Source: Rhodospirillaceae bacterium (lineage in GTDB: Bacteria; Pseudomonadota; Alphaproteobacteria; SMXQ01). From it: DNA of 45,513 nt. Positions 81 through 7,189 of the stretch are shown here, one piece after another; positions within the stretch are counted from its first letter, which is position 1; each line of letters begins with the position of its first letter. The stretch lies in contig CANJIM010000018.1 of the NCBI GenBank assembly GCA_947474495.1, positions 1 to 45,513 of the forward strand. The letters run 5' to 3'. Below the pieces are notes generated by a model. That model was not told the origin of the DNA. It saw only the letters and a program-made list of their open reading frames with translations, and did no database searches. The translations under genes were made by a program, and so were the position numbers.

Positions 81-401
81 ATGACGTTCGCTGGGATCAC
101 CCGCCATGACCGACGCCGCCTTCGCGCTTCCCTGTTGCCGGCGCTCTTCGCCGTGCTGCTCGGCATGCCGGCGTGCGTTCAGGCCCAGGAGTCGGCTGTG
201 ACCGCCCCGAGCTTGCCCGCCGGCGCGATTGCTACTGGCGACGAGCTTTACATGGTGCCGATCGCCGAGGATGACATCGGCTGCATGCAGTACCGCATGT
301 ATTCGCCGACCAAGGCGGTGGCGCAGGTGATCTTTTACCGCGCCCCCGATGGCAGCTTTACGGCCGATCGCTCCAAAGCCGACTGCGCGAAAAAGACGTA
401 A
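81..401 (+). CDS. small secreted protein, unknown function
   Basis: A 106-residue protein with an N-terminal export signal: a basic n-region (RRRLR around residues 11-15), a hydrophobic stretch at about 17-31, and a likely signal peptidase I site after AQA near residue 36. The mature part is about 70 residues with two cysteines (in DIGCMQYR and near the C-terminus), which could form a disulfide. No family was recognised. It converges on the flagellin-protease gene, with only three bases between the stop codons. The ribosome binding site is weak, so the start is not certain. Confidence 0.6.
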   Translation: MTFAGITRHDRRRLRASLLPALFAVLLGMPACVQAQESAVTAPSLPAGAIATGDELYMVPIAEDDIGCMQYRMYSPTKAVAQVIFYRAPDGSFTADRSKADCAKKT

Positions 402-404
402 CCG

Positions 405-2561
405 CTAGTTGAAAAGCTGCAGCAGGTTCTGCGGCATCTTCTGGGCCTGGCTGAGAACGCTGATACCCATCTGCTGCAGGATCTTCTGTGAGGTGAAGCT
501 CGTCATTTCGCTGGCGACGTCGAGGTCCATGAGGTCGGAGCGGGCCTTTTCCATATTCTCGACCACGGTGTCGGAATTGCTCGAGGCGAAGTCGAGGCGG
601 TTTTGCGCCGCGCCGATGTTAGCGCGGATGTCGCTCAAGCGGTCGATCGCCGCCGAAAGCTTGTCGGAGGCATCGTCGGCGTTGGCTTGCGTGTCGATCT
701 CGACGTCCGATAGGCCGAGGCTGAGACTCGAAATCGACTGGGTGTTGATGAGCAGATCATCGCCGGTGCCGGTGCCGCTGCCGATCTTGAAGCTGAATTC
801 CTTGCTCGGCGAATCGCTGAACGACTCGTAAGCATCGGCGACCTTGAACAAGGAATCGGCGAAGGCGGCGCTCTGGCCGCTCACCACGTTCAGCTGGTTG
901 GAGACCGAACTGGCCGAGCTGGCTGTGACATTGATGTCGATCCGCAGCTGCGCCATCGTGGCCTTGTCCATGTCGATGATGCCGCGGCCATAGGTCGTGT
1001 CGATCCCCTCGTCGCCGAGATCGGTTGTCGTCGAGAACACGAGATTGGCGATCTCCGCGCCGCTCAGATTGGACGTGCTGCCCGAGCCGTACAACTGGCT
1101 CAGCACGGCGACGGCGCCGGCGACATGCGGCGCGGCCATCGATGTGCCGGAATGGACGACGGTATTGCTGGTCACCGTGGTGCCGCCGTTGAACAGGTCG
1201 GAGGTGATGCTCACGCCGGGCGCGGTGACTAGGAAGCTTTTCACGGCGCCAGCCTGATTGGAGAAGCTGGCGATTCCATTCTGGTCGTCGGTCGCGCCGA
1301 CGGCGATCAAAGCGCCCTGCGCCGTCGCATCGATGGCGAAACTGGCCGGGAAATCGGGGTCGGCAAGCGCGGAGTTGCCGGCCGCGGCGACGATGACGAC
1401 GCCGGCGTTGATCGCGCGCACCATGGCAGCCGTGACTTGGTTTGGTATGCCGACGCCCTGGCCAAAACTGAGCGACATGTTGATGACCTTGGCGCCGTTG
1501 AGGCGCGCGTAGTCGATGGCGTCCGACACGTCGTCGGCGTCGAAGGTGCCGGTGCCCGGCGCCGTCGCCTTGATGGCGAGAATGTCGGCCTCATAGGCGA
1601 CGCCCATGGTGCCGGTGCCGTTACGTTCGCCGGCGGCGATACCGGCGACATGAGTACCGTGACCGTCCGACGCATTGCCGTCGTTGGTGTCGTTGCCGTT
1701 GCCTGACGTGGTGCCGGCGGTGGCGGCACCGCCTTCGAGCACGCCGTCGACGATATCGACGCCGCCGACGATGTTGTTGTCGAGATCGGTGTGGTAGCGA
1801 TCGACGCCCGAATCGATGACGGCGATGGTGACGCCGGCGCCGGTGCCGCCGCGCCCATAGGCTTTGGAGGCGTGGATGTTATTGAGGCCGGTGGAGGCGA
1901 GATATTCGCTGTCTTCGAAGCTTTCCGAATTGAGTTCGCCGGTCAGCGTGCCGAGCGAATAGCCGTCCTTGTTGGAGACGCTGACAACCAGGCCATCCGA
2001 CGTGCCGCTGCTGTTCTCGTAAGTGACGCGCCCGTTCTGCACATCCGAGAGATTGAACGTGTCGTTGAGGACCAGCGCCGTGCCATCGAGATAGACGGTG
2101 CCGTTGGCCGGCAGTTGGCGCAGGGTAAAGACGATGCCGCTGTCATCGACCAATCCTTGGCCGTTGAACTGCGTGTCGCGCGCGATGCGGTCGATTTCGG
2201 ACTTGAGCGCCTGGAATTCCGTATCGAGCATGCCGCGCTCGACGCTGGACAGCTGGCCCGAACCGGCTTGCACCGACAGGGTCTTCATGCGCGTGAGGAT
2301 GTCGTTGACCTTGGACGAGGCGCCGTCGGCGATCTGCAGCACGGAAACGGCTTGGCGCGCGTTGATGGCGCCTTGGCGCAGCGCGGCGACTTCGACATTG
2401 AGGCGGGAGCCGATGGCGAGCGAGGCTGCGTCGTCGCGCGAACTGAGGACGCGCGTGCCCGACGACAGACGCGCGAGCGAACGAGTCGCGGCGCGATCGG
2501 CCATATCGACATAGCGCGTGGCAACAGTCGCCGCGCCGTTATGCGCGATCGTCAGTGTCAT
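405..2561 (-). CDS. flagellin with internal subtilisin-family (S8) protease domain
   Basis: A 718-residue chimera. Residues 1-140 are a flagellin N-terminal D0/D1 region (RLSSGTRVLSSRDDAASLAI, ending in DTQFNGQGL). Residues about 143-200 resemble the LPxxGTVYLDG...FNLSDVQNGRVTY repeats of bacterial adhesins (cadherin/CSPG type). Residues about 228-540 are a full subtilase: catalytic Asp250 (AVIDSG), His301 (DGHGTHVAG), oxyanion Asn396 (AAAGNS) and Ser474 (GTSMAAPHVAG). Residues about 550-718 are the flagellin C-terminal D1/D0 (FKIGSGTG, then ILQQMGISVLSQAQ and PQNLLQLF). The protease thus occupies the variable D2/D3 position that faces outward in a filament. There is no signal peptide and no recognisable I9 propeptide; export through the flagellar type III system is inferred. 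No other flagellar gene lies nearby. The start is the only one giving a normal flagellin N-terminus, though its ribosome binding site is weak. It is analogous in design to flagellinolysin, a flagellin carrying a zinc metallopeptidase, but the protease class is different. Confidence 0.95.
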   Translation of the reverse strand: MTLTIAHNGAATVATRYVDMADRAATRSLARLSSGTRVLSSRDDAASLAIGSRLNVEVAALRQGAINARQAVSVLQIADGASSKVNDILTRMKTLSVQAGSGQLSSVERGMLDTEFQALKSEIDRIARDTQFNGQGLVDDSGIVFTLRQLPANGTVYLDGTALVLNDTFNLSDVQNGRVTYENSSGTSDGLVVSVSNKDGYSLGTLTGELNSESFEDSEYLASTGLNNIHASKAYGRGGTGAGVTIAVIDSGVDRYHTDLDNNIVGGVDIVDGVLEGGAATAGTTSGNGNDTNDGNASDGHGTHVAGIAAGERNGTGTMGVAYEADILAIKATAPGTGTFDADDVSDAIDYARLNGAKVINMSLSFGQGVGIPNQVTAAMVRAINAGVVIVAAAGNSALADPDFPASFAIDATAQGALIAVGATDDQNGIASFSNQAGAVKSFLVTAPGVSITSDLFNGGTTVTSNTVVHSGTSMAAPHVAGAVAVLSQLYGSGSTSNLSGAEIANLVFSTTTDLGDEGIDTTYGRGIIDMDKATMAQLRIDINVTASSASSVSNQLNVVSGQSAAFADSLFKVADAYESFSDSPSKEFSFKIGSGTGTGDDLLINTQSISSLSLGLSDVEIDTQANADDASDKLSAAIDRLSDIRANIGAAQNRLDFASSNSDTVVENMEKARSDLMDLDVASEMTSFTSQKILQQMGISVLSQAQKMPQNLLQLFN

Positions 2562-2623
2562 AGCTCGGGAATCCGAAGCAGTTTCACGGCTTTACCTAAG
2601 CCAAATGTTGCCCGTTGCCGGGT

Positions 2624-2640
2624 GTCACCCTCCTGGTGAC
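2624..2640. promoter_or_regulatory. inverted repeat upstream of the flagellin-protease gene
   Basis: A perfect 6-bp inverted repeat, GTCACC-N5-GGTGAC, lies about 63 bases upstream of the flagellin-protease start. It could be a protein-binding site or a leader hairpin. I found no convincing sigma-28 or sigma-54 promoter next to it, so the role is a guess. Confidence 0.35.
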
Positions 2641-2686
2641 TTTGCCACTATGAGAGCAAAATCCTAAAAATAGGTAAAATTTGTAC

Positions 2687-2704
2687 AATCGGATTTCTCC
2701 GATT
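2687..2704 (-). terminator. possible weak terminator after the amidohydrolase gene
   Basis: AATCGGA and TCCGATT form a 7-bp stem with a 4-base loop, 33 bases after the amidohydrolase stop. On the minus strand the following sequence has TTTT only after a short gap. It lies in an AT-rich spacer between that gene and the flagellin-protease gene. Confidence 0.35.
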
Positions 2705-2736
2705 ATTCAAAGGCTTAATAAAAAATATCTGGAGCT

Positions 2737-3798
2737 TTAGCTGAGTCCGTAGAGCGCCCTGGCATTGGCGCCGAGAATCTTATCGACGGCGGCGGGGCTG
2801 ATCTTGCCATCCTTTTTCAGCAGGCGCAGAGCCTCGATCTCGGTCGAGGTGTCGTGGTGGCCGTAATCGGTGCCGACCACCAGATTGTCCTCGCCGGAGA
2901 CCTTGATGATGTCGCCGAGGTCGTCGGTGACCTGGCAGGCGACAAACATGCGGTTGTCCTTGAGCGGATTGGCCGACAAACGCTTGCCGCGCCGCTTGAA
3001 GCGCAACGCCAGGTCGTTCATCACGTAGGGCAGCCATTGGGCGCTGACCTCGACGAAACCCCAGCGCGTTTTTGGGAACATGGTCGGGATGCCTTCGATC
3101 ATCAGGCCATGGAAGGCGCCGACGACCGACAGCTTGAACTTGTTGAAGCCGCTTTCGTCTTGGAAGAAGTCGTGAATCTGAAAGGCGTTGGTGCCGGAAT
3201 GCAGGCACAGCGGCAAATCCAGCTCCTGGGCGGCCTCATAGAGCGGATAGAAGTAAGGGTCGGTCAGGCGCTTTTCCGCTTCGAAGCCGCGCATGAACAC
3301 GCCGCAGGCGCCGTTATCCTTGGCCCAGGCCAACTCGTCGCGCATCTTGTGCATTTCCAAGAGCGGCGGCATGGCGACCCAGCGCAAACGGCCTTTGCCC
3401 TTCTTCCAGATTTCGGCGAGCCAGCGGTTGTAGCTTTTGATCAGGGCCGTTTCGACCTGGGCCTTCAGCGTCATCGGGCGCAGGAACAGCGTCGGATAGA
3501 GCACCTGGATGTCGATCTCCAACTCGTCCATATGCTTGAGCCGGCCGTCGATGTCGCGCATTTCGCGCGCCTCTTCGCTCGTCGTCGTGTGGCCGACGTT
3601 GGCGTCCTTCGGCTGCAGGCGGCCGTCGACCACCCACCATTCCTTTTGCATGTTCTTGCCGTCGTTCGCCGCTTTGGCGGCGCCTGACGTCTGGGCGACG
3701 ATCATCGGCGCATATTTGCGCTCGTCTTCAGCCATGAATTCCCAGGTATAGGGAATTTCGAGGACGTGCGCGTCGGCGTCGATGGTACGCAAGGTCAT
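2737..3798 (-). CDS. amidohydrolase family 2 (ACMSD-like) metal-dependent hydrolase, copy 1
   Basis: A 353-residue TIM-barrel hydrolase or decarboxylase of the amidohydrolase-2 family. Candidate metal ligands are Asp9/His11 in IDADAH, His200 in LCLHS and Asp311 in VGTDYGHHD. The strong SD sequence GGGAG seven bases before the ATG at 3798 favours this start over an upstream start at 3837. Family members act on carboxylated or lactone aromatics and ring-cleavage products; the substrate here cannot be read from sequence. A clear paralogue lies at 5833-6897 in the opposite direction, sharing long blocks such as QVLYPTLFLRP and WGFVEV-AQWLPYV. Confidence 0.88.
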   Translation of the reverse strand: MTLRTIDADAHVLEIPYTWEFMAEDERKYAPMIVAQTSGAAKAANDGKNMQKEWWVVDGRLQPKDANVGHTTTSEEAREMRDIDGRLKHMDELEIDIQVLYPTLFLRPMTLKAQVETALIKSYNRWLAEIWKKGKGRLRWVAMPPLLEMHKMRDELAWAKDNGACGVFMRGFEAEKRLTDPYFYPLYEAAQELDLPLCLHSGTNAFQIHDFFQDESGFNKFKLSVVGAFHGLMIEGIPTMFPKTRWGFVEVSAQWLPYVMNDLALRFKRRGKRLSANPLKDNRMFVACQVTDDLGDIIKVSGEDNLVVGTDYGHHDTSTEIEALRLLKKDGKISPAAVDKILGANARALYGLS

Positions 3799-4045
3799 GA
3801 CTGATCTCCCAAGGGGGGCGGCCGTATCGCCGCTCATTCGCTTCTCCGAGCGGCAACAGTTTACCGCCAGGCCTCTGTCGTCAACAGCGATTCAGTAGAT
3901 TTTCGTCGGGTGGAATGTTGCGCTGCGTCCACTTAATCGCGACAATCCGCCCGCTCGTACGGGATCGTACCAAAAGCGGAATTTTGTGTTGTTTTAGAAG
4001 CGCCGCGTCTCAAAAAAGAGCGCGACGACAGGGAGACGAAAGAGG

Positions 4046-5640: not shown

Positions 5641-5832
5641 CCTTGAATCTTTACCAGAAAGGAAACGCACCGCCAAAGGGATCGGACACTCTGCGAAACA
5701 TTTTTACGCGATGAGGGATGGCACGATCATTGCTACTCTTGCAGGGCAATCAACAAGGGCAGGGCCGGTCGCCGGCTTATGCGCAATTGCCGGCCATGGT
5801 CTGAACCTGGCGGCTTGATGAGGGAGAGTGCG

Positions 5833-6897
5833 ATGGGAGCGATCGACGCCGATGCCCATGTGATCGAGACGGCGCAGACGTGGGCTTATCTCGAAGGCGC
5901 AGAAAAGCGTTTCACGCCGCGCCTTCTGACGCAAAGTTCGGGCGAGACGCTGCTGAGCAACGAAGGCGATGCGCTGCGGGAATTCTGGGACATCGAGAAC
6001 CGCACGCACGGCAAGGACCGCAACACCGGATCGGACACATCGCGCGAATCGCGTGAGCTGCTAAGCGCCGCGGCGCGGCTCGCTCATATGGATCAGCTCG
6101 AGATCGAGGTGCAGGTGCTTTATCCCACCCTGTTTCTCCGGCCTGTGGTGGTCGATCCCGAGCGCGAGGCGGCGCTGTGTAAGACTTACAACCGCTGGCT
6201 GGCGGACATCTGGCGTCAGGGCGGCGGGCGGTTGCGCTGGGTCGCTATGCCGCCGCTCCTGCTGCTGGAGAAATCGCCGCAGCGAGTGCGGGACGAAATC
6301 GCCTGGGCAAAGGACAACGGCGCGGTCGGCATCTTCCTGCGCGGTCTCGAATGCGAGCGCAATCTTGCCGAGCCCTATTTCGACGCCCTGTGGCAAATGG
6401 CCACGGAGTTAGACATGCCGATCTGCATCCATTCGGCGAACGGCTGCTTCCTGCACCACGACTTTTTCATGAAAGACACCAGCTTCACGCGCTTTAAGCT
6501 CGCCGTGGTCGGCGCTTTCCATACGCTGCTGGAGAAGGAAATTCCGACTCGCTTTCCCAAATTGCGCTGGGGATTCGTCGAAGTGGGCGCGCAATGGCTG
6601 CCTTACGTGCTGAGCGATCTGCGCGAGCGCTTTCGCAAGAAGGGCAAGCCCTGGCCTGAAAAGCCGCTCGCGGCCAACCGCATGTTCGTTGCCTGCGAGA
6701 ACTGGGAAGACGTGCCCTACATCCTGGCCCATGCCGGCGAAACCGATCACATCATGATCGGCACCGATTATGGTCATAGCGATCCCTCGACCGAGTTGAA
6801 CGCCATCCGGCGCTTGCGCGACGATGCGCGGCTGGAACCGGAGACGGCGCGCAAAATCCTTGAGGTCAACCCGCGCCGGTTCTACGGCTTGGCTTAA
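5833..6897 (+). CDS. amidohydrolase family 2 (ACMSD-like) metal-dependent hydrolase, copy 2
   Basis: A 354-residue paralogue of the product of 2737-3798. Candidate metal ligands are Asp7/His9 (IDADAH), His200 (ICIHS) and Asp312 (IGTDYGHSD), at nearly the same positions as in copy 1. The SD sequence AGGGAG six bases upstream fixes the ATG at 5833. The two copies keep all motifs but differ throughout the N-terminal loop (residues 30-80), so they may act on different substrates of one pathway. Confidence 0.88.
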   Translation: MGAIDADAHVIETAQTWAYLEGAEKRFTPRLLTQSSGETLLSNEGDALREFWDIENRTHGKDRNTGSDTSRESRELLSAAARLAHMDQLEIEVQVLYPTLFLRPVVVDPEREAALCKTYNRWLADIWRQGGGRLRWVAMPPLLLLEKSPQRVRDEIAWAKDNGAVGIFLRGLECERNLAEPYFDALWQMATELDMPICIHSANGCFLHHDFFMKDTSFTRFKLAVVGAFHTLLEKEIPTRFPKLRWGFVEVGAQWLPYVLSDLRERFRKKGKPWPEKPLAANRMFVACENWEDVPYILAHAGETDHIMIGTDYGHSDPSTELNAIRRLRDDARLEPETARKILEVNPRRFYGLA

Positions 6898-6991
6898 GCG
6901 AGGCCACGGCGAGCCCCGAGGCGGACCCCATTGTCAGGACCCGCGTGAGCCTGTAGGGGTTTGCGGTCCTCACCCGTTCAAAGCGAGCCCC

Positions 6992-7189
6992 ATGGCTTTT
7001 CTCTCGGATCCTTTCGCCCTGCTGATTTTCGCGGCCGCCGTGCTGCTGGCATTCTTCGCCGGCCGGCTCGGGCGCAAGGGCTTGCTGTGGTGGCGGGGGC
7101 GTAAGGCGCCGCCGCCGTCCGGCCCGCCGCCGTCGCGTCAGGTTCAGCGGGCGCAGCGCCGCCGGCAAGAAAAGCGGATGCGAGACTGA
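6992..7189 (+). CDS. small single-span membrane protein
   Basis: A 65-residue protein. Residues 8-24 (FALLIFAAAVLLAFFAG) form one membrane segment. The tail is proline-rich and then strongly basic (RQVQRAQRRRQEKRMR), so it would sit in the cytoplasm next to nucleic acid or lipid. The reading frame is open further upstream, but that part looks like non-coding spacer and only the ATG at 6992 gives a sensible protein. No family is recognised. Confidence 0.55.
   Translation: MAFLSDPFALLIFAAAVLLAFFAGRLGRKGLLWWRGRKAPPPSGPPPSRQVQRAQRRRQEKRMRD

Follow-up and report, generated by a model that had tools for sequence, protein, structure and literature searches.

A predicted serine-protease flagellin in a bacterium that has lost its flagellar genes

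The window analysed here, a stretch of 45,513 nucleotides, is the entire contig C18 of a draft Rhodospirillaceae genome (G000; 127 contigs, 96 % complete, 1.8 % contamination), which was compared with a same-genus genome, a fragmented draft labelled as a MAG (G001; about 190 contigs, INSDC record CAMAVH010000092.1). Close to its left end, one uninterrupted open reading frame of 718 aa starts with ATG. The original prediction had placed it correctly; the minus strand is supplied here as a correction. The features of the locus are as follows.

405–2561, minus strand: S8-flagellin gene, 718 aa, flagellin-subtilase-flagellin (open reading frame; Pfam; orthologue in G001)
2142–2549, minus strand: Flagellin_N domain (PF00669), residues 5–140, filament core D0/D1 and export signal region (Pfam E 4.2e-30)
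1968–2144, minus strand: Cadherin_3-like stretch (PF16184), residues 140–198 (weak Pfam match; modelled as strands)
981–1841, minus strand: Peptidase_S8 (subtilase) domain (PF00082), residues 241–527 (Pfam E 1.4e-47, profile 1–288 of 288; AlphaFold; TM-score)
1812–1814, minus strand: catalytic Asp250 (residue position and subtilase alignment, as for the next three)
1659–1661, minus strand: catalytic His301 (GHGTH)
1374–1376, minus strand: oxyanion-hole Asn396
1140–1142, minus strand: catalytic Ser474 (GTSMAAPHVAG)
411–662, minus strand: Flagellin_C domain (PF00700), residues 634–717 (Pfam E 3.5e-21)
2562–2736, minus strand: 5' intergenic region, conserved in part in G001; the ATG is not preceded by an obvious Shine-Dalgarno (sequence comparison)
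81–401, plus strand: small convergent open reading frame 3' of the S8-flagellin gene, kept beside it in G001 (synteny)

The Flagellin_N, Peptidase_S8 and Flagellin_C matches score far beyond the curated Pfam cut-offs; the Cadherin_3 match reaches 21.5 bits against a cut-off of 25.5 (E 2.4e-4) and also falls below it in the G001 orthologue (24.4 bits). Helical Flagellin_N and Flagellin_C domains stand at the two ends, as in a bacterial flagellin, and the NCBIfam flagellin models score above those for FlgL. Between the ends sits a full domain of peptidase family S8 with its Asp/His/Ser triad and oxyanion Asn, and all four residues bear exactly the numbers first assigned to them and are invariant across a 42-row subtilase alignment. 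The claim of a whole S8 protease enclosed by flagellin ends is thus borne out by the single reading frame, the Pfam domains and the G001 orthologue. The proposed N-terminal flagellin part agrees with Pfam, while the C-terminal part, said to begin at about residue 550, is recognisable only from near 607–634. With a protease domain between intact flagellin ends, the protein is, as predicted from its sequence, a serine-protease variant of the proteolytic-flagellin idea. No Inhibitor_I9 propeptide domain was found in it with Pfam, and no HExxH motif occurs in its sequence.

The leader contains a box, CAAATTTTACCNATTTTTAGGATTT, and a hairpin-like element, GGCTTAGGTARAGCC. Plain flagellin genes have GGAG, whereas the S8-flagellin gene is without an obvious Shine-Dalgarno sequence and may be weakly expressed. 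Two similar Amidohydro_2 genes lie nearby on opposite strands, at 2737–3837 (minus) and 5779–6897 (plus).

An AlphaFold model, proposed as a check along with the original prediction, gives the Peptidase_S8 domain a pLDDT mostly above 90, and this part superimposes on solved subtilisins with a TM-score of about 0.92 (target-normalised). Among solved structures, the ends come nearest to flagellins and the middle to subtilisins. Flagellin rows for the alignment were sought in viral contigs and none were found there, so that the model of the flagellin ends draws on two sequences; with so few sequences, their helices reach only moderate model confidence.

The orthologue in G001 is intact and collinear over 718 aa, with 82 % amino-acid identity and the same neighbours on both sides, and nucleotide identity around the gene is 83 %. 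At its left end the window contig shares an overlap of 149 identical bases with contig C46, which resolves the downstream flank and hence both flanks. Between the two genomes the dN/dS of the S8-flagellin gene is 0.25 overall (0.15 for flagellin N, 0.23 for S8, 0.29 for flagellin C), in comparison with 0.23 for plain flagellin and 0.03–0.28 for neighbouring and core genes. Purifying selection acts on the protease part as it does on plain flagellin. An orthologue in a shared neighbourhood, together with this selection, indicates that the gene is real and maintained and no assembly chimera.

G001 also holds a second version of the 3' part of the gene, at the end of contig C124 and with 96 % nucleotide identity. 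Its reading as a paralogue, and with it a two-copy claim, was dropped, since the flank is that of the window gene's locus and the fragment could equally well stem from strain variation or be a tandem copy. Just downstream of this version (L016, C124, about 6790–7110) lies a palindromic repeat of ~120 bp, and related copies are present at several places in G000.

Searches of 385 genomes from the class and 398 from the phylum, two sets that overlap in part and amount to about 780 Pseudomonadota, recovered the full-length flagellin-S8-flagellin architecture from G000 and G001 and from no other genome. Two narrow patterns run against 84,980 species genomes matched only G001 and, being narrow, leave distant cases possible; the genome searches likewise leave room for independent fusions elsewhere, particularly in other phyla. 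In plasmid records, no place covered 80 % of the S8-flagellin query. Other large S8 matches (in G039, G049, G002, G372 and others) turned out to be subtilases of the surface or secreted kind that lack flagellin ends, and the large flagellins of other genomes gave no Peptidase_S8 match. The literature searched describes metalloprotease flagellins only and no subtilisin or serine-protease flagellin, in agreement with the original view that such a protein had not been characterised. Most subscription papers lie outside that literature, as does the supplementary domain list of PMC5595980, which might name S8; a flagellin with a serine protease is therefore undescribed in the literature searched, and priority cannot be claimed.

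The obvious point of comparison is flagellinolysin, the metallopeptidase flagellins described by Eckhard et al. 2017 (PMC5595980) and in Hylemonella gracilis (PMC7643111); according to the former study, flagellinolysin filaments of C. haemolyticum are proteolytic. Both types of protein combine normal flagellin ends with a peptidase domain placed in the hypervariable region. However, flagellinolysin is a zinc gluzincin with HExxH, whereas the S8-flagellin is a subtilase with Asp-His-Ser and has no HExxH metallopeptidase domain in this region; activity has been demonstrated for the former and is predicted from sequence for the latter. The flagellinolysin model NF033876 is not among the best 25 NCBIfam matches of the S8-flagellin. 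Since the enzyme parts are non-homologous, their origins are separate: by analogy the S8-flagellin would work alike, yet it stands outside the flagellinolysin family.

The closest kin of the subtilase part are autotransporter-like S8 proteases from related bacteria, for example those at loci L005, L047, L062 and L063. They bear a CGGGG lipobox and have Phe as the last residue of their C-terminal region, and they lack the flagellin parts of the S8-flagellin. A tree built from 58 subtilase domains places both S8-flagellins as sister to ten such subtilases with support 97/91, and the S8 part is 43 % identical to L005. The NCBIfam model for the autotransporter peptidase EprS matches both the S8-flagellins and these relatives; the relatives gave no match to an autotransporter Pfam domain, which makes "autotransporter" a presumptive label. 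Passage through the flagellar channel would be easier to reconcile with a donor that was already able to fold extracellularly and needed no separate propeptide. The plain flagellins of the genus (G000 C31; G001 C30 and C15/C9) share about 66–71 % identity with the S8-flagellin over the N-terminal 140 residues; those of C31 and C30 differ from it in having 488–489 aa and no Peptidase_S8 match. They are presumably its intended filament partners.

The original prediction went on to propose a filament lined by thousands of protease copies. For the organism of the window this is not supported: its genome has lost chemotaxis genes as well as those for flagellar export and assembly, and no such filament can arise there via the known route. 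FHIPEP/FlhA, present in G001 and G002, was not found in G000, and seven flagellar proteins of G001, joined into one query, had no match there. Another joined query, for which G001 served as positive control, recovered CtrA, MoaA and TerC from G000 and did not find FliI, FlhA or FlgI; matches of 33 % in the FliI range belong to other ATPases. Neither CheA nor CheW was found in G000, and CheW is present in G001 and G002. On contig C17 of G000, the non-flagellar genes ctrA, dksA and csrA stand side by side with a 5' stub of flgB. When this contig is set against the G001 contigs C15 and C9, joined by an exact 144-base overlap, it forms three collinear blocks at 81–86 % nucleotide identity, between which flagellar genes are missing over 13.8 kb and 37.8 kb. 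Such collinearity is best read as gene loss and not as an assembly gap, with at least 51 kb of flagellar DNA cut from the locus. G000 keeps one plain flagellin, on contig C31. We infer that the S8-flagellin gene is an orphan in G000, its product neither exported nor polymerised by the flagellar route; failure of secretion or polymerisation, which the original prediction had named as counting against it, is thus probable in this organism.

G001, on the other hand, has a flagellar cluster with FlhA, FliF, FliI, FlgE, FlgK, FliD, FliS and a cluster flagellin (gene names other than FlhA and the flagellins were read from translated sequences), plus a C31-type flagellin. Because this genome keeps a full flagellum and plain flagellins, a mixed, protease-bearing filament is plausible there, so that the idea of a proteolytic filament, unsupported for the window's organism, survives for its flagellated relative.

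The reading that we favour, with a probability of about 0.62, is that of a serine-protease-type proteolytic flagellin, filament-borne in flagellated members of the genus and stranded as an intact orphan in G000. In an ancestor of the genus, the outer domains of a flagellin would have been replaced by a subtilase domain from lipobox-bearing, probably autotransporter-type surface proteases. In flagellated members such as G001, the flagellin ends would direct the unfolded chain through the flagellar channel and pack into the filament core with plain flagellins, while the subtilase would fold outside, on the filament surface and without an I9 propeptide, where it could cut proteins near the cell. 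Metallopeptidase flagellins have been demonstrated to behave in a corresponding way (PMC5595980). In G000, a clean deletion would have removed the flagellar locus and left the S8-flagellin intact without an export route.

For G000 itself, the chances are about even that the gene is a decaying relic, which after a recent flagellar loss is on its way out together with the C31 plain flagellin and is functionless now. The complete loss of flagellar and chemotaxis genes points in this direction, as do eight lineage-specific changes in the flagellin C part of G000 as opposed to none in G001. However, this asymmetry could equally have arisen in G001 if its plain flagellins converted the C-terminus of the gene there, the flagellin N part has no G000 excess (6 changes versus 4), both G000 flagellins are fully open and the overall dN/dS is 0.25. 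A relic would also have to be young: in a simulation of neutral decay, the chance of an open frame fell below about 5 % after 0.1 changes per site, which means either that the flagellum was lost recently or that the S8-flagellin has been retained for another reason. Decay of this kind concerns only the present state of G000 and is compatible with a filament-borne protease in the flagellated relative.

It is rather improbable that the G000 draft is a strain composite, in which a flagellated strain could carry the S8-flagellin gene and the flagellum-less C17 would come from another strain. Its 127 contigs and 1.8 % contamination would allow for such mixing, and the two 96 %-identical versions of the 3' part in G001 suggest a strain mixture there. 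Nevertheless, none of the flagellar genes tested and no CheW occur anywhere in the 96 %-complete assembly, and C17 is collinear with G001 at 81–86 %, close to the 83 % of the window gene's surroundings.

The outer domains of flagellins are free to vary, and many of them have a structural role; PMC5595980 counts 61 domain types among them. The S8 domain might process flagellin or trim its own filament, or act as a bulky structural outer domain only. We consider this unlikely as well, given that a purely structural role would not require the four catalytic positions to be kept in both species, nor purifying selection on S8. Finally, an artefact of assembly or gene calling that joined three separate genes, which the position of the gene 405 bases from the contig end might suggest and which the original prediction had named as its own undoing, is refuted by the recurrence of the 718-aa architecture in the independent G001 assembly (CAMAVH010000092.1) and by the two resolved flanks.

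If a serine-protease flagellin of separate origin is confirmed, the flagellum has been turned into an enzyme carrier more than once. A bolder proposal, which we hold only tentatively and consider improbable as a whole, is that enzymatic flagella evolved independently a second time, with a surface-protease subtilisin on the filament, and that one flagellum-less lineage has kept its enzyme-flagellin for use outside a filament. An S8-flagellin would offer a system testable with PMSF and a natural scaffold for subtilisin display. Moreover, two sister species that both carry the gene, the flagellated G001 and the aflagellate G000, allow a test of whether an enzyme-flagellin outlives its flagellum.

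FlhA occurs in 2 of 11 genomes of the family (G001 and G002) and in none of G000 and G003–G010, some of which are incomplete assemblies; this suggests that the flagellum was lost repeatedly in the family. On C17 of G000 (L083, 43774–45063), flgB survives as its first ~62 residues, which run in frame into the 3' part of a cckA-like gene, coding for kinase and receiver. The flagellar deletion apparently gave rise to this fusion, whose frame stays open through 429 aa although the kinase has lost its membrane and sensor part.
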